From an uncultured Chlorobiota bacterium (lineage in GTDB: Bacteria; Bacteroidota; Ignavibacteria; UBA10030; UBA6906): DNA of 64,000 bases. Numbering within the stretch: position 1 is the first letter of the stretch; every line of letters starts with the position of its first letter. The stretch is taken from assembly GCA_900696645.1 (NCBI GenBank), contig CAADGV010000042.1:62001-126000 (forward strand), written 5' to 3'. Below the pieces are notes generated by a model that saw nothing but the letters and a program-made list of their open reading frames with translations, was not told the DNA's origin and made no database searches. Below, one piece after another: positions 4,950 to 23,097 of this stretch. The position numbers and the translations under genes are program-made.

Positions 4950-6416
4950 TTACATCTTCCCCAACACCGGCTTGCTTCCCAACACTTCTTCAATCGTTAG
5001 CTTCTCAATCGGGCCCAAGTTCAGTGCCCTGATACCTGACTCGACTTTCGACATATCTCCCACAACCACAATTGCAATCTTCTCGGGATCGACGTACTTC
5101 TTTGCAACTCGAACAACATCATCTTTTGTCACGGCGAGGATATTGTTCGTGTAGTTGTTGAAGTACGTGTCGGGAAGATTGTAGATGACGAGATCGCCCA
5201 ACCGTCCGGCAATCTCACCAACGGATTGGAAGTCGCTGGGATAGCTGAGGGCAACATAGTTCTTCGCCCGCGTCAACTCATCATCGGAGATGTTCGAAAT
5301 GTTCGTCAGTTCCTTCATGAACTCCGTCAGCGCCTTGTCCGTTACATCCGTTTGTACATCCGATGATGCAAGGAATGACCCCGGCAGCGGCAGGAAGTTG
5401 AACCGGGAGCCTGCCCCGTATGCGTAGCCGTGTTCCTCGCGCAAGTTGTTGTTCAGGCGTGACGTGAACGAGCCGCCGAGGATTGTATTCATTACGACTA
5501 TCGGATAGTAATCCTCCGTTGTTCGCGCAACACCGATGCGTCCGATACGAATCACGGATTGCGCGGCTCCCGGCTTGTCAACGAGATACAGCTTTCTCGC
5601 TTCGACTTGCTTGGCCGTCGGCCAGGTTTTGCTTTCGACTTTGCCGGCTTTCCATTTCCCGAACAACGCATTCAGTTTCGGCAGAATAGTCTTTGCCGTC
5701 ACATCTCCCACCACAATGAGCGTGGCATTGTTGGGATGAAAATAGGTGGAATGGAACTTCTTCAAATCCGCAATGCTGAATGCACGGATCGCCGTTTCAT
5801 TGCCCATCGTCGGCGGGCCGTAGGGATGATCCTTCCCGAACAGAACGTTGTTGAACAACGTCGAGCCGACGACACGCGGCTCATCGTGCCATTGAAGGAG
5901 TGTAGTCAGCCGCTCAATCCGATTTCGCTCAAGCTCTTCGGCGGGAAATTTGGGGCGCAATGCGGCATCTGCAAACAATGCCAACGCCGAATCGAGCTTG
6001 CTGAGCGGGGTGAACAGCGAGACGGTTGTTGTGTGCATTCCGGCATTCACTGAAATGTTTGCTCCGAGAAAATCCACGGCATCAGCAAACGCGAGTGCAT
6101 CGCGGTTGCCTGCACCTTCCTGCATCATTGCGGCCGTCATGCTCGCGAGTCCCCGCTGCCCAGCGGGATCCATAGCTGTTCCTGCGTTCACCAGCAAATT
6201 CACCTGCACAAGCGGAACCTGATGCTTCTCCATCAACACAACCTTCAAACCGTTCGAAAGCTTTAGGTGCTGGATTGCGGGAAGCGTCAGTGACGGCGGC
6301 GGACCGAGTTCCGGCGGCTTGCTGCGATCAGGCTGCTGCGCAACCCCCAATGACCAATGACTACTGACTAAATAGACTAAACAGATTAAAACGACTGTAC
6401 TTTGAAATCTCTTCAT
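4950..6416 (-). CDS. M16-family peptidase-like subunit lacking the zinc motif
   Basis: Exported protein of 488 residues with an N-terminal hydrophobic segment, two M16 (insulinase/pitrilysin-like) halves, and the conserved R/Y motif region LREEHGYAYGAGS. Where active subunits have HxxEH, this one reads GLASMTAAMMQEGAG, so it cannot bind zinc there. It is the likely non-catalytic half of a heterodimer, as known for mitochondrial processing peptidase alpha and bacterial M16B pairs. It overlaps the active subunit gene by ATGA. The signal peptide region is partly encoded by a repeat-like tract (6346-6398). Confidence 0.9.
   Translation of the reverse strand: MKRFQSTVVLICLVYLVSSHWSLGVAQQPDRSKPPELGPPPSLTLPAIQHLKLSNGLKVVLMEKHQVPLVQVNLLVNAGTAMDPAGQRGLASMTAAMMQEGAGNRDALAFADAVDFLGANISVNAGMHTTTVSLFTPLSKLDSALALFADAALRPKFPAEELERNRIERLTTLLQWHDEPRVVGSTLFNNVLFGKDHPYGPPTMGNETAIRAFSIADLKKFHSTYFHPNNATLIVVGDVTAKTILPKLNALFGKWKAGKVESKTWPTAKQVEARKLYLVDKPGAAQSVIRIGRIGVARTTEDYYPIVVMNTILGGSFTSRLNNNLREEHGYAYGAGSRFNFLPLPGSFLASSDVQTDVTDKALTEFMKELTNISNISDDELTRAKNYVALSYPSDFQSVGEIAGRLGDLVIYNLPDTYFNNYTNNILAVTKDDVVRVAKKYVDPEKIAIVVVGDMSKVESGIRALNLGPIEKLTIEEVLGSKPVLGKM
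6346..6398. repeat. Iterated CAATGACC / GACTAAATA motif inside a signal-peptide coding region
   Basis: CAATGACCAATGACTACTGA is followed by GACTAAATAGACTAAACAGA. The short units drift in the same way as the tracts at 62222-62270 and 2791-2837. Here they stay in frame and encode residues of the M16 leader. Confidence 0.4.
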
Positions 6417-15610: not shown

Positions 15611-17791
15611 TTACAACCCGATTTCGATACCCGCAGTAACAAATCTCGGCAAACCGACTTTGATTCCTTCCGGCCTGCGCGAAGCAATGTATCTCTTGTC
15701 GAAGAGATTCTTGATAGAAAGTGAGCATGCCGCATTCAGCGGCTCGATGCCGTAGCGTGCGGAAAGATCGAACACAACATGTGCGGGAATGAGGCCCGTC
15801 AGTCCGTTGGTTGTTGCCTGTACGGTATTGAACTCATCGGAGAACTGTTTGTCGATGTAATTTGCCGTCGCCTGCACGGATCCGCCGAACGGCGCAAGGA
15901 GCGCGACGGACGAGGAGACGAACCATTTTGGTGCGTAGGGTAGTGAATTGCCTTTTACATTAATCCGATTGCCGGATTGTGTGAGAAATCTATCGGCACT
16001 GAATGTCGCACGGACGTACGTTGCGTTAGTATTGAGAATAACAGAATATTCCGACTCGAGCATCTGACCGAGGTCGATTGTAAAGCCTGCTTCGGCTCCG
16101 ATGTGGCGGCTTCTGCCTCCGTTGACCAATCCGGTTCCCGTCCCGCCCGACGATTGCGATACAGGAATAATCTGATTCGAGAAGTCAAGGAAGAATCCCG
16201 TTACTTCAACAGCGATACCATCTACCGGTGAAAGGCGCATGCCGAGCTCGTAATTCCAGCTCAACTCTGCATCAAGATTGAGCGCCTCGCCCGCGCTCGT
16301 GATAGCATCCTTGACACGCGGCGGGGCAAAACCACGATGAACGCCTGCAAACACCGACGAGCCTTCGCTCAACTGGTAGCTGATGCCGAGACCGGGGATC
16401 AACTGCAACAAGTTGCTTCCGGCGACAAGATTCGTATCTCTCACAACTCCGTTAAACTGCCCCCGCATGATATTACGGTTGTATGAGAATGATTCGAGAC
16501 GGATGCCCGGACTGACGACAAGCCTGTCTGTGATGTAGGTTCTGTTTTGAACAAAAGCGCTCCGGGCGTAGCCTGTTCTGATTTCATCATCACGCATATT
16601 TCCCGAGGATGAATTGAAAGTCGTGCCCAAGATGAGTTGCTCAAAAGCTCGTTCATACAAAAATCTGAATCCGAGATCGAGTTCATTCCTGACACCCGCG
16701 AGTTGGTGAGTCATCGAGAAGCGGGGTTCAATGCCGGCCACTTCAAACTGGCGGTTGCGATTCCCCGTCTGATTCCGCATGTAGAGGGCGCCGCCCGGAA
16801 CTGTAGTGTCTCCATGAACAACACCTGTGCGGTTCGTTGTTGTGCTTGCGCGTCCGAATTCCTGCCGGCGCCAGTTGCGTGTTGTGGTGTAGCCGAACAC
16901 TGTTGTGCGGAGACTTACGCCCTGAGCAAACACGTAATCATACGTTGCGTTGGCCGAGTACCGGCGGATGTTCAGTTCGTCGTCCGGGGCAACGTTCGTG
17001 AAGTAATCCCCGTTGTCATACATCGTCTGTGTCAGCCCGACGTAGGTGGAGTTCGAGTTCTCGTCGTACGCGGAGAGTTTGACGCCCAATACCGACTGCT
17101 CGCCGAGAATGAACTTGAGTTTTGTTGAGAGATCGCTGATGCGAAAGCGCGTCGTCACGAGGTTATCCGCCTGACGCCGCAGGAGATTCACTTGTGCTCC
17201 GACGTTTCCGGATGTTGTACCGTACTTCAGAAGAGTAGTAAAAAATCCGTCGTTGCCGATGTGCGCATTCAGGCTGCCGGAAGGTTCAGCAGGCGGGTCG
17301 GCGGTAATGTAGTTGATAACGCCCCCGATTGTCTGGGGGCCGAAGAGTATCGAGCCGCTGCCCTTCAAGACTTCAAGTCGCGCCATCCGGTCGATAGAAG
17401 GGGTGTAGTACATTTCAGGTTCGCCGTACGGAGCGAGCGCGATGGGCACACCATCTTCGAGCATCAACAAGTTGCGGCTGCGGTCGGGGTTCAATCCGCG
17501 CACGCCGAGATTCAGCCGGAGTCCGACACCTTCCTCATCAACGGCATGAAGTCCGGTGATCGTGCGCAGGATTTCGTTTCCGCTAATGGGGGCAAGCCGC
17601 CGCAGATTTGCGGGGGTGATGATGTTGGCAGAGCCCGGAACGCGATCAAGCATGCCCTGTTTTCGTCCAATGACGTCAACTTGAGGTAACTCGTACGACG
17701 TGGTCGCAGTGTCGGAAGCCTCAGTCGTTTGCGCTTGTGTAGAGATTATCAACAGCGCTATGAGAAAGAGAGAGAGAAGAAGACGTTTCAT
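15611..17791 (-). CDS. TonB-dependent outer-membrane receptor (FecA-like)
   Basis: Outer-membrane gated channel of 726 residues for a ferric chelate or similar ligand. Signal peptide MKRLLLSLFLIALLIISTQA; TonB-box-like segment YELPQVDVIGRK; plug domain with GLHAVDEEGVGLRLNLGVRGLNP and EVLKGSGSILFGPQTIGGVIN; then a 22-strand-type barrel ending in an aromatic-poor GIEIGL strand. The plug is closest to ferric dicitrate receptors (FecA). GGAAGGAA lies 6 nt before the ATG. It is next to the feo/fur locus, consistent with iron supply. Substrate cannot be fixed from sequence alone. Confidence 0.9.
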   Translation of the reverse strand: MKRLLLSLFLIALLIISTQAQTTEASDTATTSYELPQVDVIGRKQGMLDRVPGSANIITPANLRRLAPISGNEILRTITGLHAVDEEGVGLRLNLGVRGLNPDRSRNLLMLEDGVPIALAPYGEPEMYYTPSIDRMARLEVLKGSGSILFGPQTIGGVINYITADPPAEPSGSLNAHIGNDGFFTTLLKYGTTSGNVGAQVNLLRRQADNLVTTRFRISDLSTKLKFILGEQSVLGVKLSAYDENSNSTYVGLTQTMYDNGDYFTNVAPDDELNIRRYSANATYDYVFAQGVSLRTTVFGYTTTRNWRRQEFGRASTTTNRTGVVHGDTTVPGGALYMRNQTGNRNRQFEVAGIEPRFSMTHQLAGVRNELDLGFRFLYERAFEQLILGTTFNSSSGNMRDDEIRTGYARSAFVQNRTYITDRLVVSPGIRLESFSYNRNIMRGQFNGVVRDTNLVAGSNLLQLIPGLGISYQLSEGSSVFAGVHRGFAPPRVKDAITSAGEALNLDAELSWNYELGMRLSPVDGIAVEVTGFFLDFSNQIIPVSQSSGGTGTGLVNGGRSRHIGAEAGFTIDLGQMLESEYSVILNTNATYVRATFSADRFLTQSGNRINVKGNSLPYAPKWFVSSSVALLAPFGGSVQATANYIDKQFSDEFNTVQATTNGLTGLIPAHVVFDLSARYGIEPLNAACSLSIKNLFDKRYIASRRPEGIKVGLPRFVTAGIEIGL

Positions 17792-17850
17792 AGATGTTTC
17801 CTTCCAGGGAATATGATGAACTGATACTACGGCTCCTCACATCCGCTTTC

Positions 17851-17879
17851 TTGACATCCCCGAACACCTTCTTTATATT
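17851..17879 (+). promoter_or_regulatory. Sigma70-type promoter for a candidate small RNA
   Basis: TTGACA at 17851-17856, a 17-bp spacer, and TATATT at 17874-17879. Predicted start at about G17886, exactly where the structured RNA begins. No protein-coding gene follows on this strand for 4 kb. Confidence 0.65.
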
Positions 17880-17885
17880 GAAGAC

Positions 17886-17973
17886 GAAAGGGAATGCACA
17901 TCCGCGGATGTGATGACCTTTTCTGTAGAGCGTGCTCATTTCCTCGCCAAAGGTATGATGAGCACGCTTTTTT
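17886..17973 (+). ncRNA. Candidate structured small RNA between the TonB receptor and feo genes
   Basis: About 88 nt. GAAAGGG (17886-17892) pairs with CCTTTTC (17917-17923), enclosing a small internal loop and an inner hairpin made by a perfect 16-bp palindrome (17897-17912). An intrinsic terminator follows. The promoter, transcription start and terminator fit together without gaps. It is transcribed opposite to the neighbouring iron genes and would be antisense to their 3' untranslated region. A 192-codon frame that begins inside it runs through the terminator and looks non-coding. I do not recognise a known RNA family. Confidence 0.6.
17929..17973 (+). terminator. Intrinsic terminator ending the candidate small RNA
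   Basis: Perfect 11-bp stem AGCGTGCTCAT/ATGAGCACGCT followed by TTTTT. The T-run is only on the plus strand, so it does not serve the minus-strand feo operon. Confidence 0.85.
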
Positions 17974-17989
17974 GTTGATGAACAAAACG

Positions 17990-18175
17990 CTAAGAGCCCC
18001 GCTGCTGCGTCGTGGCAATTCCGGTCCTGATTCTTTCGAGAACATCGGACGAACAGGCGCAACTCTGTCCGCACGCTCTCCGTTTCGCACGTTGCCGTTT
18101 CCGTATCTCATGACGGACGAGAAGAAATGCTGTCACAGCCACAATCATCAGCGATGTAATTTGTTGCCAATCCAT
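17990..18175 (-). CDS. FeoB-associated Cys-rich membrane peptide
   Basis: Small protein of 61 residues starting at 18175, one base after the feoB stop. One N-terminal transmembrane helix (ITSLMIVAVTAFLLV), a basic stretch (RHEIRKRQRAKRR), then three cysteines in ACGQSCACSS. This layout matches the short FeoB-associated Cys-rich proteins found at the end of many feo operons. The longer frame starting at 18220 lies inside feoB and is not real. Probably assists Fe(II) handling at the inner face of the membrane; exact role unknown in the family. Confidence 0.75.
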   Translation of the reverse strand: MDWQQITSLMIVAVTAFLLVRHEIRKRQRAKRRACGQSCACSSDVLERIRTGIATTQQRGS

Positions 18176-18176
18176 T

Positions 18177-20297
18177 CTACACTCCAAATCCCCAAAGCAA
18201 ACCGACCCTGTACACCACAAACGTCACCACGTACGCAAGCGCTGTCATATAGCCGAGCTGGAACAAAGGCCATTTCCATGAGTTTGTTTCCCGCTTCAAT
18301 ACGGCGAGCGTCGACATGCACTGCATGGCAAGAACGTAGTACACCATCACGCAAATTGCCGTCAGGGCGGTCCATACGGGAAGCCCCGTTTCGGGATCGA
18401 TGTCGTTCCTCATCTGTTGCTGAAGTGAGAGGGAGCCCGACTCATCGTCAGAGTTCTGGATGTTATAGATAGTTCCCATCGTACTGACGAACACTTCACG
18501 CTGCAACAGCGAGGCGATAATTCCAATTCCAATCTTCCAATCAAATCCCAGCGGCTTGATAACCGGCTCAATCAGTTGTCCCGCCTTGCCCACAAAACTG
18601 TGCTGCAATTGTTCTGCGGGCGTTACTCCTTCAACTCTCGGATATGTCGCGAGGAACCAGAGAATGATTGACACTCCGAGGATGATTGTGCCGGCGTTTT
18701 TCAGAAACAGCTTCGATCTCTCCCACATTTGCAACAGAACGGACTTTAGCGAAGGCAGCTTGTACGGCGGAAGCTCCATTATAAAGAGCGGCGCCGCTCC
18801 GCGAAGCAATGTCTTCTTGAAGAGCCAAGCCATACTGAGCGCCATCACGAGTCCCAGCAAGTACATCGACAGCAACGTCAGAGCCGGGAGCGAGAGAAAA
18901 CCCAGAACGTGATCGTGAGGAATGAATGCGGCAATCAGCAACGCATACACCGGAAGCCGTGCGCTGCAACTGACAAGCGGCGACACAAGCATCGTTACGA
19001 GACGATCTTTCGGGCTTTCAATAGTACGGGTTGCCATGATTCCCGGAATTGCGCAGGCGAATGAACTGAGCATGGGAATGAATGACTTGCCGTGCAGCCC
19101 GACTTTGCTCATGAGCCTGTCCATAATGAACGCTGCACGCGCCATATATCCGGTATCTTCAAGCAGGCCAAGGAAGAGAAAGAGAAACAGGATTTGCGGG
19201 AGAAAGGTAACAACCGCCGCGACTCCGGCAAGGCCGCCATTGATCAGAAGATCGCGCAAATCACCGGCGGGCATTACTTCGTGAATGTGATTGCCAATCG
19301 AGTCAAAACCCTCGCCGATAAGATCCATCGGAACTGTTGCCCAGGTAAAGATCGTCTGGAAAATCAGCGCCATAAGCCCGACAAAAATGACGAAGCCCCA
19401 TATCCTGTGAGTAAACACGCGGTCAAGTTTGTCACTTGTGCTGAGCGCGGAAGTCTGAGCTTGCGTTACTGCTTTCCCGCACACACTCTTTATCCATTCA
19501 TAGCGCGCCTCGACTACAACCGACTGCCGGTCGATTCCCATGAAATCGAGGCGTTCATGATCTTTCTGCACGTGGGCAAGAAGCTCCGGTGCAAACCGGT
19601 CGCGGTGTTCTTCAAGAGCTTCCGGCGATGTAAGAAGCGTCAGAGCTTCGTCAAATGCCGAGTTTTCATTGAGCTTGTGGTACTGTTGCAGCAGACCGAC
19701 CAGTTCCCCGCACTCCTCTTCAACAAGAGCCGGCATACTCCACGGCCGCTTTTGTGCGGTTCGGGATTGTGCATTGGCAATGCTCTCTTTCAGTTCGTTG
19801 ATGCCGATTCCCTTGTTTGCGATTGTAGCAACAACCGGCACGCCGAGTTCACGCTCGAGCATCTTGACATCTACTTCAATACCTGCCTCTTCTGCAACAT
19901 CAATCATATTCAATGCGACAACTACCGGAATTTGCCTGTCGAGAATCTGGCTCACAAGGTACAGGTTTCGTTCGATGTTGCTCGCATCCACAACGCACAC
20001 GACCACATCGGGCCTCTGCGTATGTTCGGCGCGACCGAGAAGGATGTCGGTTGCAATTTTCTCATCGGGGGAAGTGGCATTCAGGCTGTAGGTGCCCGGC
20101 AAATCGAGAAGCGTTGCCTCCGAATTGCCCGCTAATGTGAGACGGCCTTCTTTTTTCTCGACCGTCACGCCGGGATAGTTGCCGACCTTTTGCCGCAAAC
20201 CCGTAAGCGCATTGAAGAGAGTCGTCTTCCCGCAATTCGGATTACCGATGAGGGCAACGTATCGCACACGAACCTGTTTGACTGTTTCAAATGTCAT
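18177..20297 (-). CDS. feoB: Ferrous iron transport protein B
   Basis: Inner-membrane Fe(II) transporter of 706 residues. The N-terminal GTPase domain has G1 GNPNCGKT (18-25), GNYPGVTVE switch region, G3 DLPG (65-68) and G4 NMID (130-133). A helical GDI-like spacer follows, then the membrane part with two inverted Gate repeats containing SFACAIPGIMATR and PLVSCSARLPVYA, whose cysteines line the pore. ATGA overlap with feoA upstream; the Cys-rich peptide follows. Full-length and intact, unlike the second, split FeoB at 34.4-36.7 kb. Expected to be controlled by the Fur protein heading the operon. Confidence 0.97.
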   Translation of the reverse strand: MTFETVKQVRVRYVALIGNPNCGKTTLFNALTGLRQKVGNYPGVTVEKKEGRLTLAGNSEATLLDLPGTYSLNATSPDEKIATDILLGRAEHTQRPDVVVCVVDASNIERNLYLVSQILDRQIPVVVALNMIDVAEEAGIEVDVKMLERELGVPVVATIANKGIGINELKESIANAQSRTAQKRPWSMPALVEEECGELVGLLQQYHKLNENSAFDEALTLLTSPEALEEHRDRFAPELLAHVQKDHERLDFMGIDRQSVVVEARYEWIKSVCGKAVTQAQTSALSTSDKLDRVFTHRIWGFVIFVGLMALIFQTIFTWATVPMDLIGEGFDSIGNHIHEVMPAGDLRDLLINGGLAGVAAVVTFLPQILFLFLFLGLLEDTGYMARAAFIMDRLMSKVGLHGKSFIPMLSSFACAIPGIMATRTIESPKDRLVTMLVSPLVSCSARLPVYALLIAAFIPHDHVLGFLSLPALTLLSMYLLGLVMALSMAWLFKKTLLRGAAPLFIMELPPYKLPSLKSVLLQMWERSKLFLKNAGTIILGVSIILWFLATYPRVEGVTPAEQLQHSFVGKAGQLIEPVIKPLGFDWKIGIGIIASLLQREVFVSTMGTIYNIQNSDDESGSLSLQQQMRNDIDPETGLPVWTALTAICVMVYYVLAMQCMSTLAVLKRETNSWKWPLFQLGYMTALAYVVTFVVYRVGLLWGFGV

Positions 20298-20536
20298 GAC
20301 GGTTCCTTGTGTACGAGTACTGTCTCGGCTTCAAGTTTGCGGAGTGAAAGGCGGTATCCCTTTACCCGAACCTCTATCGGATCGCCCATCGGGGCATAGC
20401 GGATTAACTCGATGGCTGTTCCTTTTGTCAGCCCCATTTCCATGAGTCGCTGGCGAACGCTTGAAGTCTTGGTGGTTATCCGGGCAATCGTGCCGCGTTC
20501 TCCGGGAGTTAACGTGCTAAGCGTTACTTCGTTCAT
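20294..20536 (-). CDS. feoA: Ferrous iron transport protein A (second copy)
   Basis: SH3-like FeoA domain of 80 residues: LTPGERGTIARI, RQRLMEMGLTKGTAIELIR, DPIEVRVKGYRLSLRKLEA. Start chosen at 20536 (MNEVTLSTL), just after the stop of the preceding feoA; the open frame upstream lies inside that gene. Overlaps feoB by ATGA. FeoA proteins stimulate or complex with FeoB. Confidence 0.92.
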   Translation of the reverse strand: MNEVTLSTLTPGERGTIARITTKTSSVRQRLMEMGLTKGTAIELIRYAPMGDPIEVRVKGYRLSLRKLEAETVLVHKEPS

Positions 20537-20537
20537 G

Positions 20538-20777
20538 TTATTCGAATGATGAAACCACAATCGAGCTTGCAACAAGCTGATTGAGGCCGATACGTGTGTT
20601 GCAGACTTCGCATATAATAGTACCGCTGCCTTTGCTGACGCACCGGACGACGGCATTTTCGCAGAAGCCCATCTCGCGAAGCCGCATACAGAAATCCGGT
20701 TGCGAATTCAGTTGACGAATCCGTACTCTCTGTCCCATGGGAACATCTGTCAGTGAAAGATGACTGTTGTGGTGCAT
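20538..20777 (-). CDS. feoA: Ferrous iron transport protein A (first copy)
   Basis: FeoA-type protein of 79 residues (LTDVPMGQRVRIRQL, CMRLREMGFCENAVVRCV, GTIICEVCNTRIGLNQLVA). It carries four to five cysteines that the other copy lacks, so it may bind metal. Start at 20777, 7 nt after the fur stop; the longer frame overlaps fur and is discarded. Two distinct FeoA proteins before one FeoB suggest a FeoA heteromer. Confidence 0.9.
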   Translation of the reverse strand: MHHNSHLSLTDVPMGQRVRIRQLNSQPDFCMRLREMGFCENAVVRCVSKGSGTIICEVCNTRIGLNQLVASSIVVSSFE

Positions 20778-20784
20778 GGTATTC

Positions 20785-21228
20785 TCAAACCTTTTTCCTG
20801 CATTTGGAGCATGTGCCAAAAATCTGAATTGTCGTACTCTGAATTTCAAAGCCCTTGCTGTTTGCCATTTCTTCCTGAATCCGTTCAAGCCGGTCGCTTG
20901 TGAACTCGATGATATCACCGCAATTCAGGCAGATCATGTGGTGATGATGAGGCCGGCCAAACGCCTTTTCGTACCGCGACGTGTTCTCCGCAAATCTGTA
21001 CTTCGATACGAGACCGCACTCCTGTAGTACCTCGAGTGTGTTGTACACAGTCGCCTTCGACACTTTCACGCCGTTTGAAATAAGCCGGTAGTACAACGCT
21101 TCCACATCAAAGTGACCCTGGCTCTGAAGAACAGCATCAAGAATAGCAAACCGCTCCGGCGTAGCTCGTTGCTTTCCGTTCGATTTGAGATGTTTGGTGA
21201 GAATTTCGTGAGCGGCTTGTGTGTCCAT
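20785..21228 (-). CDS. fur: Fur-family metalloregulator
   Basis: Transcription repressor of 147 residues. Winged helix: RATPERFAILDAVLQSQGHFDVEALYYRL and KATVYNTLEVLQECGLV. Metal sites: HHHHMICLNC and the C-terminal CSKC pair form the structural zinc site, with the His-rich stretch at the regulatory site. First gene of the feo operon (fur-feoA-feoA-feoB-Cys peptide). Its promoter is covered by a 9+9 bp inverted repeat, so it probably autoregulates. Fur (iron) is favoured by context, but PerR (peroxide) shares these motifs and cannot be excluded. Confidence 0.93.
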   Translation of the reverse strand: MDTQAAHEILTKHLKSNGKQRATPERFAILDAVLQSQGHFDVEALYYRLISNGVKVSKATVYNTLEVLQECGLVSKYRFAENTSRYEKAFGRPHHHHMICLNCGDIIEFTSDRLERIQEEMANSKGFEIQSTTIQIFGTCSKCRKKV

Positions 21229-21238
21229 TCGTCTCGCC

Positions 21239-21289
21239 TTATTTAGAATTAGTCTAAATAAAAATAAGAACGGATTGGCCTGTTGTCAA
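21239..21289 (-). promoter_or_regulatory. fur-feo operon promoter with overlapping Fur/PerR-like operator
   Basis: On the minus strand: -35 TTGACA (21284-21289), 17-bp spacer, -10 TATTTT (21261-21266). A perfect inverted repeat TTATTTAGA-5 bp-TCTAAATAA (21239-21261) starts at the -10 box and covers the transcription start. Confidence 0.75.
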
Positions 21290-21763: not shown

Positions 21764-22105
21764 TTACTTTTTTCCTCGTTTTGAGCCCCGTTCGGGCTTC
21801 GCCGGCGTGGATTCCAACTTGGATGTTCGGCTCATCATGTAGACCCGCAACGCCATACGGACCTGCTCATCGCTCATGCCGGTGGCTTCTTTGAACTCGC
21901 TCAGTGCCCGGAGGTCATCTATCATGTCCTTCATATCGTCGAGGGTGATCTCCTTACCTATTTCCTTCATATAGAGTTGCAGCTCCGCGAACACCGAGCG
22001 CTGCTCACTGCCTACGTACATTTCCCCCTCACCTGTCAGAAGCCAATTGATGTTGACCCCTGCCGCCCGGGGAACGGCAGAAGTTGGAACGCGCTGTGCG
22101 TGCAA
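21764..22105 (-). pseudogene. Phage CI/C-type repressor fragment, HTH domain missing
   Basis: From about residue 16 the protein reads GVNINWLLTGEGEMYVG, the typical end of a phage repressor helix-turn-helix domain. It continues through an acidic helical region to a basic tail (KPERGSKRGKK). The preceding residues have no HTH similarity and are antisense to the MuF gene; the only start available is TTG. The gene therefore lost its DNA-binding half at about 22060-22075. Transcription toward the repeat array parallels gene c of phage Mu. Probably non-functional as a repressor. Confidence 0.65.
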
Positions 22106-23097
22106 GGATGGAAGAAATTGCCAAAGCCCGTGCGCTCGATCTGCCGGGCGAACACATCGACGCTCTCATTGCCGCCCGCCAAATCAGCATCGGGAATATC
22201 CAGCACCAGATGCAAGCCGACCTCCAGCGCGAGGTTCGCCGTGCGCTTGTTGCAGGCTATGGTCCCGATGTGTTGCGGAAACGGCTGGAGGATCGTGCGT
22301 TCGGTAACGCCAAAACCGAGGCGTACACCGCCGTGAGCAGGTTCAACAATTTGCTTACATTTGAAAACGCCGCCGCCACCGGCACGCAAACATTCAAATA
22401 CTTCGGTCCCGTCTCGGCAATCACCCGTCCCTTTTGCCGGGCGCATGCGGGGCAGGTGTTCACGCTTCAAGAGATCGAGCGGATGGATAACGGACAAGGG
22501 CTGAGTGTGCGGGAAAGTCTCGGAGGTTACAATTGCCGTCACTATTGGATACCGGCGAACGATCAACGATCAACCGTCAACGATCAACGATCAACCGTAC
22601 GGATCGGCAAGCAAACATATCTGATGGACGAGGAGCAGAAGCAAACCCTCTTCACCCGCGAGCGTTCACTCTGGATTCAAACGGCGGAGGCGACGGCAGG
22701 GAAACCGGCGTCGTGGTTTCTCACGGCAAAGCCACTCGCGCGTGCGCACGATGGGTTCAACGAGTACATCACTGGACAACCGAGTGAGGGCGTGTGGGTG
22801 CCGAAGGCCAATAAGGGCTATACAGAACATGCCCGGAAGCATAGCGCTGAATTTGGGACAGAGTATGACTATCGCAACGCGATGGCGAATGCGTTACGCA
22901 ATCGGGACGCGAAAGTGTACGAAGATGCAATATCGTACTTGGTGCACGATGCGGGCAACAACACGCTGCTGATACTCCGCAAAGGCGACGGCTTGTTGGA
23001 ATCGGCATATCGTTGGGATAGAGAGAAATGGCCTGATCAATTCAAGGGCAAACGGTTACTTGGGACACTACGCGAATTCTTGGGAGACTTCCGATGA
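22084..23097 (+). CDS. MuF/SPP1 gp7-like head morphogenesis protein with toxin-like C-terminal domain
   Basis: N-terminal half (to about residue 160) is a phage Mu F/SPP1 gp7-type minor head protein: RFNNLLTFENAAATGTQTFKY, then the Cys/His motif RPFCRAHAGQVF...GGYNCRHYW. The C-terminal half has YTEHARKHSAEFGTEYDY and a YLVHDAGNNTLLILRKGDGLL strand pair, which resembles BECR-fold RNase toxins carried by MuF polymorphic toxins (inference). An in-frame 21-bp tandem duplication sits at the boundary. The frame starts with TTG at 22084 and is open only to 22057, so the gene has lost its beginning. The next gene overlaps by ATGA. Confidence 0.75.
   Translation: MERAVRARMEEIAKARALDLPGEHIDALIAARQISIGNIQHQMQADLQREVRRALVAGYGPDVLRKRLEDRAFGNAKTEAYTAVSRFNNLLTFENAAATGTQTFKYFGPVSAITRPFCRAHAGQVFTLQEIERMDNGQGLSVRESLGGYNCRHYWIPANDQRSTVNDQRSTVRIGKQTYLMDEEQKQTLFTRERSLWIQTAEATAGKPASWFLTAKPLARAHDGFNEYITGQPSEGVWVPKANKGYTEHARKHSAEFGTEYDYRNAMANALRNRDAKVYEDAISYLVHDAGNNTLLILRKGDGLLESAYRWDREKWPDQFKGKRLLGTLREFLGDFR
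22558..22598. repeat. Two-copy 21-bp in-frame tandem repeat in the MuF gene
   Basis: AACGATCAACGATCAACCGT occurs at 22558-22577 and again at 22579-22598 with one base between. The 21-bp period keeps the frame and encodes ND-QRSTV twice. It sits between the MuF part and the toxin-like part. Confidence 0.85.

Follow-up and report, generated by a model that had tools for sequence, protein, structure and literature searches.

A predicted small RNA encoded antisense between iron permease and outer-membrane protein genes in Ignavibacteria-type bacteria

The window, i.e. the whole stretch of 64,000 nucleotides analysed here, comes from a genome of 4.2 Mb and carries an iron-uptake cluster on its minus strand. 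Read along that strand, the cluster comprises a fur-family regulator gene, which is the first gene of the operon (20785–21228; PF01475, E 1e-33); two feoA genes (20538–20783, PF04023, E 1e-13; and 20294–20536, PF04023, E 5e-25); feoB (18177–20297; PF02421, E 3e-63); an ORF for a FeoB-associated cysteine-rich small membrane protein (17990–18172; PF12669, E 8e-4, which is under the curated cut-off); and a gene for a TonB-dependent receptor (15611–17791; PF00593, E 8e-37, and PF07715) that is codirectional with feo. Between the last two, on the plus strand at 17851–17973, the letters read as a promoter followed by an interrupted hairpin from G17886 and then by a long terminator hairpin with a U-tract. 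This predicted small RNA converges with the FeoB-associated ORF and the feo genes and diverges from the receptor gene. An earlier examination of the letters alone (the sequence-only reading) had described a small RNA that opposes the feo genes and has no coding gene downstream, and both points were borne out; all flanking genes are on the minus strand and the plus strand has no gene 3' of the RNA, for which reason a riboswitch or leader was rejected. A plus-strand ORF at 17894–18472 was also rejected as coding, as it matches no Pfam family, is antisense to feoB and is not conserved. At the far end of the cluster, just upstream of the fur promoter, an ORF at approximately 22084–23097 (plus strand) resembles, by eye, a phage Mu F-like head protein, and prophage-like genes may start there.

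The promoter is composed of a -35 box TTGACA (17851–17856) and a -10 box TATATT (17874–17879) with a 17-nt spacer; G17886, the first base of the outer stem, is at +7 relative to the -10 box. Direct reading thus confirmed the proposal of a TTGACA-17-TATATT promoter pointing to G17886. It is the sole promoter-like site across 17000–19000 (11/12 against the consensus with TATAAT), and since approximately one such site is expected by chance per 2 kb, the promoter by itself proves little. At the corresponding position in the homologs described below, TTGA is present in 19 of 20 genomes and TTGACA in 13, the -10 box is TATATT, TATCTT or TACATT, and the promoter scores 10–12/12 in most members. The antisense strand of the gap has a promoter of 9–12/12 in all 10 loci tested, and its coding strand has none of at least 9/12 in 10 loci when scored by the sigma70 consensus only.

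The predicted RNA is approximately 88 nt in length (17886–17973, plus strand). The segment 17886–17976 folds at -39.9 kcal/mol compared with -21.9 ± 3.3 for shuffled sequences (z -5.4; 0/200 shuffles as good); folded separately, hairpin 1 has a z of -3.4 and the terminator a z of -5.3. Hairpin 1 (17886–17923) has a 7-bp outer stem, GAAAGGG/CCUUUUC (17886–17892/17917–17923), around an inner hairpin (17897–17902/17907–17912) formed by the palindrome CACATCCGCGGATGTG (17897–17912). The sequence-only reading had counted this as a perfect 16-bp palindrome; the palindrome is there, but it is 16 nt long and equals a 6-bp hairpin with the loop CGCG. It is identical in one genome of the same genus (G001) and altered yet still pairing in G002 and G011. 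Because its sequence is not conserved beyond the closest species while the pairing is kept, it is better understood as an RNA stem than as a DNA operator, and the latter reading was rejected. The separate terminator (17927–17970) also stood, although its stem is 14 bp with the flanking A-U pairs (17927–17940/17957–17970) rather than the 11 bp first given, with a mini-stem of 3 bp in the loop. The U-tract TTTTTT (17968–17973) is strand-specific. In 16/16 units tested the tail is T-rich on the sRNA strand, with 6–9 T of 10 after the stem versus 0–5 on the other strand; a terminator serving feo was rejected, as the U-tract is absent from the minus strand.

Units with this promoter, two hairpins and a U-tract were found in 20 genomes, apparently mostly MAGs, from five families of one order of Ignavibacteria-type bacteria, by means of covariance models, searching for the loop motif, and scanning feo loci. 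The covariance model R1 comprised the promoter and hairpin 1, with R2 and R3 being wider, and with these models whole genomes from the family, the order and the class were searched; membership required the second hairpin and the U-tract. The genomes counted were G000, G001, G002, G006, G011 and G012; G029, G034, G054, G089, G090 and G097; G027; G023; and G046, G055, G070, G071, G079 and G086. G097 was obtained by its loop motif, G012 and G027 came from feo loci, and G023 came from a promoter/terminator scan of feo loci without a covariance model; G014 (L138) was excluded as doubtful, its fold being no better than shuffles. A DNA search found the locus in two same-genus genomes (96% and 74% identity) and matched part of it in a different genus of the family. 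In families f3–f6 the sequences are far diverged, with only the promoter, the architecture and (partly) the loop in common. Across 16 units with the full architecture the fold z ranges from -3.2 to -7.2. The covariance-model search proposed in the sequence-only reading recovered the unit, the total of 20 being reached with the other routes.

Covariance E-values are rough. As the models contain promoter columns, weak matches were checked singly and approximately 10 rejected; many of them had matched on nothing more than a promoter or leader. Not counted on this basis were a proS-like leader (L119, L112, L113, L118 and L121), a leader resembling a cobalamin riboswitch (L236, L237 and L239) and a lon-like promoter (L251 and L252). 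In G002, L119 has at approximately 1501–1600 a promoter, short hairpin and U-tract just upstream of a prolyl-tRNA synthetase-like gene, a possible attenuator leader. No paralog was found elsewhere in the genome of the window (next match E 1.4). G034 carries a second two-hairpin sRNA-like unit (L162, approximately 5400–5540, minus strand) with the loop CCTCGCCAAAGG and a weaker promoter; this follows the cytochrome gene of the same cluster, after the distal genes and not between permease and outer-membrane protein (OMP) genes. Most feo loci examined in the order are without the RNA, which is therefore not required for the operon. Rfam 15 gave no match at the gathering threshold in the whole window or in 14 homolog loci, as anticipated by the sequence-only reading, and with a relaxed E-value only sub-threshold matches (E 1.2 or more); literature searches found no paper dealing with small RNAs in these bacteria, nor one describing a feo antisense RNA built like this one.

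In a 13-sequence alignment, which was fitted to the model and hence leans towards it, 90.7% of hairpin 1 cells are paired, compared with 67% when shuffled, and 11 of 13 pairs have both-sided changes. The covariation score of hairpin 1 is 0.587 versus 0.221 ± 0.033 for shuffled alignments, and falls to 0.06–0.19 when partners are slid by 1–3 columns. Compensatory outer stems include GAAAGGG/CCUUUUC, GCAAUGG/CCAUUGC and GCAACGG/CUGUUGC; terminator stems are unlike each other yet pair, as in GAGCGUGC/GCACGCUU, AGUGCAU/AUGCACU and GAGUACUUCAC/GUGAAGUACUC. Compensatory change has thus kept both stems, a check that had been proposed beforehand. Homologs have indels in stems and loops and share no reading frame. 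With its own promoter, a conserved structure, its own intrinsic terminator and no conserved frame, the unit has the features of a stand-alone sRNA gene, and conservation of promoter, fold and terminator supports the original description of a self-contained small RNA gene. It could be argued that there is no RNA gene here, and that a DNA operator palindrome and a terminator of the neighbouring genes mimic an sRNA by chance; a region of this size should contain about one promoter-like match by chance, and the 16-nt palindrome has the look of an operator. However, the pairing of the palindrome is conserved and its letters are not, the terminator faces one way, that of the sRNA strand, and serves no other gene, and the unit recurs in 20 genomes. 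We consider such mimicry extremely improbable, and the covariation appears to have largely refuted it already. Taken together, the promoter, the compensatory changes and the one-sided U-tract leave a plus-strand RNA gene as the only good reading of the sequences.

An iron permease adjoins the RNA in every genome in which the RNA was found, even where the permease is FTR1. Of the loci, 18 have two readable flanks, and in all 18 the permease gene and a codirectional gene for an outer-membrane beta-barrel enclose the RNA, which is antisense to them; the contig of G002 stops before the next gene and the barrel gene of G012 is unclear. The permeases are FeoB with a FeoB-associated protein, a divergent FeoB (G055, G070, G079 and G086) or FTR1/FtrD (G046 and G071), and the barrel families vary (TonB receptor, Porin_O_P, DUF6662 and IAT_beta-like), some being assigned by similarity by eye and not by a profile match. 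The conservation of position thus goes further than common inheritance of a single pair of genes would explain. In most loci the gap between the codirectional permease and OMP genes is approximately 150–300 nt. Whole-genome searches that were blind to location matched beside an iron permease in G006, G054, G034, G070, G071, G029, G079, G086, G046 and G055. Comparison of these loci establishes the unit, its predicted structure, its conservation and its location, and what had been taken for a free-standing regulator between two units is better viewed as an antisense element inside a putative feo–OMP operon. In some loci the OMP gene 3' of the sRNA is followed by a gene for an FMN_bind-domain protein (L248, 2893–6359; L163, 6718–8877; L249, 5189–8983); L248 also has an ApbE-family gene and L249 has look-alike ORFs, and these FMN_bind/ApbE genes are possibly a flavin-based ferric reductase module in the feo operon.

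The same arrangement would arise if promoter and terminator served only to block or space convergent transcription, by interference or insulation, with the RNA as a by-product. The strength of the convergent promoter in most members and a terminator signal confined to the sRNA strand are consistent with this, but mere transcription has no need of compensatory changes in hairpin 1 or of a conserved loop motif, and we regard interference or insulation alone as quite unlikely.

The fur-feo promoter (TTGACA 21289–21284, 17-nt spacer, TATTTT 21266–21261) has, just downstream of its -10 box, a Fur-type palindrome, ATTTAGACTAATTCTAAAT (21241–21259, minus strand), which is upstream of fur in the 8 genomes compared. 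The form ATTTAGANTAANTCTAAA is at the same place in these 8 genomes, with one mismatch in G014, and this palindrome beside the fur-feo -10 box is likely to be the Fur box of the lineage. With up to 3 mismatches allowed, the window has no other site of this kind; neither the RNA promoter nor the region upstream of the receptor gene has one. Direct Fur control of the RNA is not supported by these sequences, and because neither of the two regions has a box, any Fur control is likely to be indirect, through the sense transcript. The sequence-only reading had proposed an iron-responsive regulator from the Fur-linked setting; the link to iron proves far stronger than the letters alone could show, there being a permease beside the RNA throughout, but direct control by Fur does not, as its promoter lacks a Fur box. 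Hfq (PF17209) was found in 0/16 genomes of the order, with positive controls, which disfavours an Hfq-type trans regulator.

Because the same arrangement recurs in approximately 20 related bacteria, the RNA is, on comparative grounds, very probably a real and undescribed regulator of iron uptake. For its mode of action we favour, in a judgement that is evenly poised, a Fur-independent intercistronic antisense RNA that limits the message reaching the distal OMP gene of a Fur-controlled fur-feoAAB-OMP operon. The cis-encoded antisense gene would occupy the gap of approximately 200 nt between the permease genes (fur-feoA-feoA-feoB-feoB_associated) and the OMP gene, and its own sigma70-type promoter, without a Fur box, would yield a short two-hairpin RNA ending at its own terminator. 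Transcription of the operon would start at the Fur-repressed promoter at 21.28 kb, cross the gap and continue into the OMP gene; the RNA would pair with the gap portion of this transcript, first by hairpin and loop contacts and then as a duplex open to cleavage by RNase III, with interference added by convergent transcription. Through this pairing and interference, little message would reach the OMP gene when iron is plentiful and feo transcription is low; when iron is scarce, Fur would release the promoter and the RNA would be overrun. The outcome would be a set ratio of permease to OMP. We infer that the RNA is transcribed, that the feo and OMP genes share a transcript and that OMP expression is lowered.

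Some findings go against this explanation. Many feo loci of the order are without the RNA, the second copy of G034 is not placed between permease and OMP genes, and a 12-nt loop motif is kept across families, although an antisense RNA acting purely in cis would have no need of a conserved primary sequence. CCTTTsGCGAGG tops the terminator hairpin in G011, G012, G029, G079, G086, G089 and G097, with near forms in G054 and G090. In the genus of the window (G000, G001 and G002) and in the second copy of G034, the same loop has its exact reverse complement, CCTCGCCAAAGG (17942–17953 in the window, plus strand); the motif is lost in G034, G027 and G046. The inversion, which appears long-lived, can be seen by comparing 17942–17953 of the window with 7391–7403 of L104 (minus strand) and 7770–7782 of L207 (plus strand). 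Its origin is easily accounted for, because template switching from one hairpin arm to the other is a documented source of loop inversions (PMC8794818).

The loop motif, conserved as the stems drift, could instead indicate an iron-related sRNA acting in trans, in a role like that of RyhB or FsrA, with the loop or the single-stranded linker pairing with the ribosome-binding regions of unlinked mRNAs and residence in feo loci being due to descent. In keeping with this, the RNA has its own promoter and terminator, CCUUU or CCUCC stretches of the loop could match purine-rich ribosome-binding sites, and G034 has its second copy. A fixed trans seed, however, would not tolerate reverse complementation of the loop (CCTCGCCAAAGG versus CCTTTGGCGAGG), exact 13-mer copies of the motif elsewhere are few, scattered and mutually unrelated, no Hfq was found in the 16 genomes searched, and the sRNA promoter is without a Fur box. 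Action in trans would also leave unexplained the strict permease/antisense/OMP position, even with FTR1, and we consider it a possibility of minor weight. The apical mini-hairpin CCUU-UsGC-GAGG could otherwise bind a regulator or ribonuclease, making the RNA a protein-binding or sponge RNA; such a compact hairpin is conserved in many members, but its inversion in the genus of the window and its loss in G034, G027 and G046 make this very unlikely.

For a kissing loop formed with the complementary sense transcript, the flip would make no difference. We put forward, more tentatively than the general antisense explanation and as an unlikely extension of it, an order-wide antisense RNA family in which the loop CCUUUsGCGAGG is kept in both orientations because it forms a kissing loop with the matching complement within the feo–OMP mRNA, the inversion swapping the partners without loss of pairing. 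If so, the RNA would be the founding member, the family a natural test of loop–loop antisense control of an iron operon, and its loop inversion a rare instance of one persisting for long in a bacterial sRNA.

Were the intercistronic antisense explanation correct, these little-studied bacteria without detectable Hfq would own a structured antisense RNA family at the junction of inner-membrane import and outer-membrane uptake, and its covariance models are ready for use in annotation. The proposed early termination of a sense mRNA by an antisense RNA resembles attenuation of the RnaG/icsA type, where duplex formation favours an intrinsic terminator in the sense transcript (PMC8383071); the sense strand here differs in having no U-tract after the hairpins. 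Like RyhB, PrrF, NrrF, FsrA and IsrR, the RNA is small, intergenic and iron-linked, with its own promoter and terminator. Unlike these Fur-controlled trans sRNAs, it has no Fur box at its promoter, no Hfq found alongside it and no Rfam match, and is antisense in a feo operon.

The closest parallel is with RNA-beta of Vibrio anguillarum, a single plasmid-borne case and a much longer RNA. RNA-beta is an antisense RNA that causes termination within fatDCBA-angRT, the proximal genes being approximately 17-fold more expressed (PMC8383071, citing Stork et al. 2007). Like the present RNA, RNA-beta is encoded in antisense within a set of iron-uptake genes, with transport genes on the proximal side and further genes on the distal side, and the distal part is proposed to be less expressed; in 18 loci the RNA is antisense between the proximal and distal genes of one iron-uptake cluster. 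It differs from RNA-beta in being short, with its own conserved two-hairpin fold and terminator, in being found order-wide and in having an OMP gene as the distal gene. The antisense termination effect is proposed here by analogy, for an RNA known from sequence alone. If the analogy is correct, RNA-beta would turn from the single classical example into one case of a repeatedly used way to adjust gene ratios inside an iron operon.
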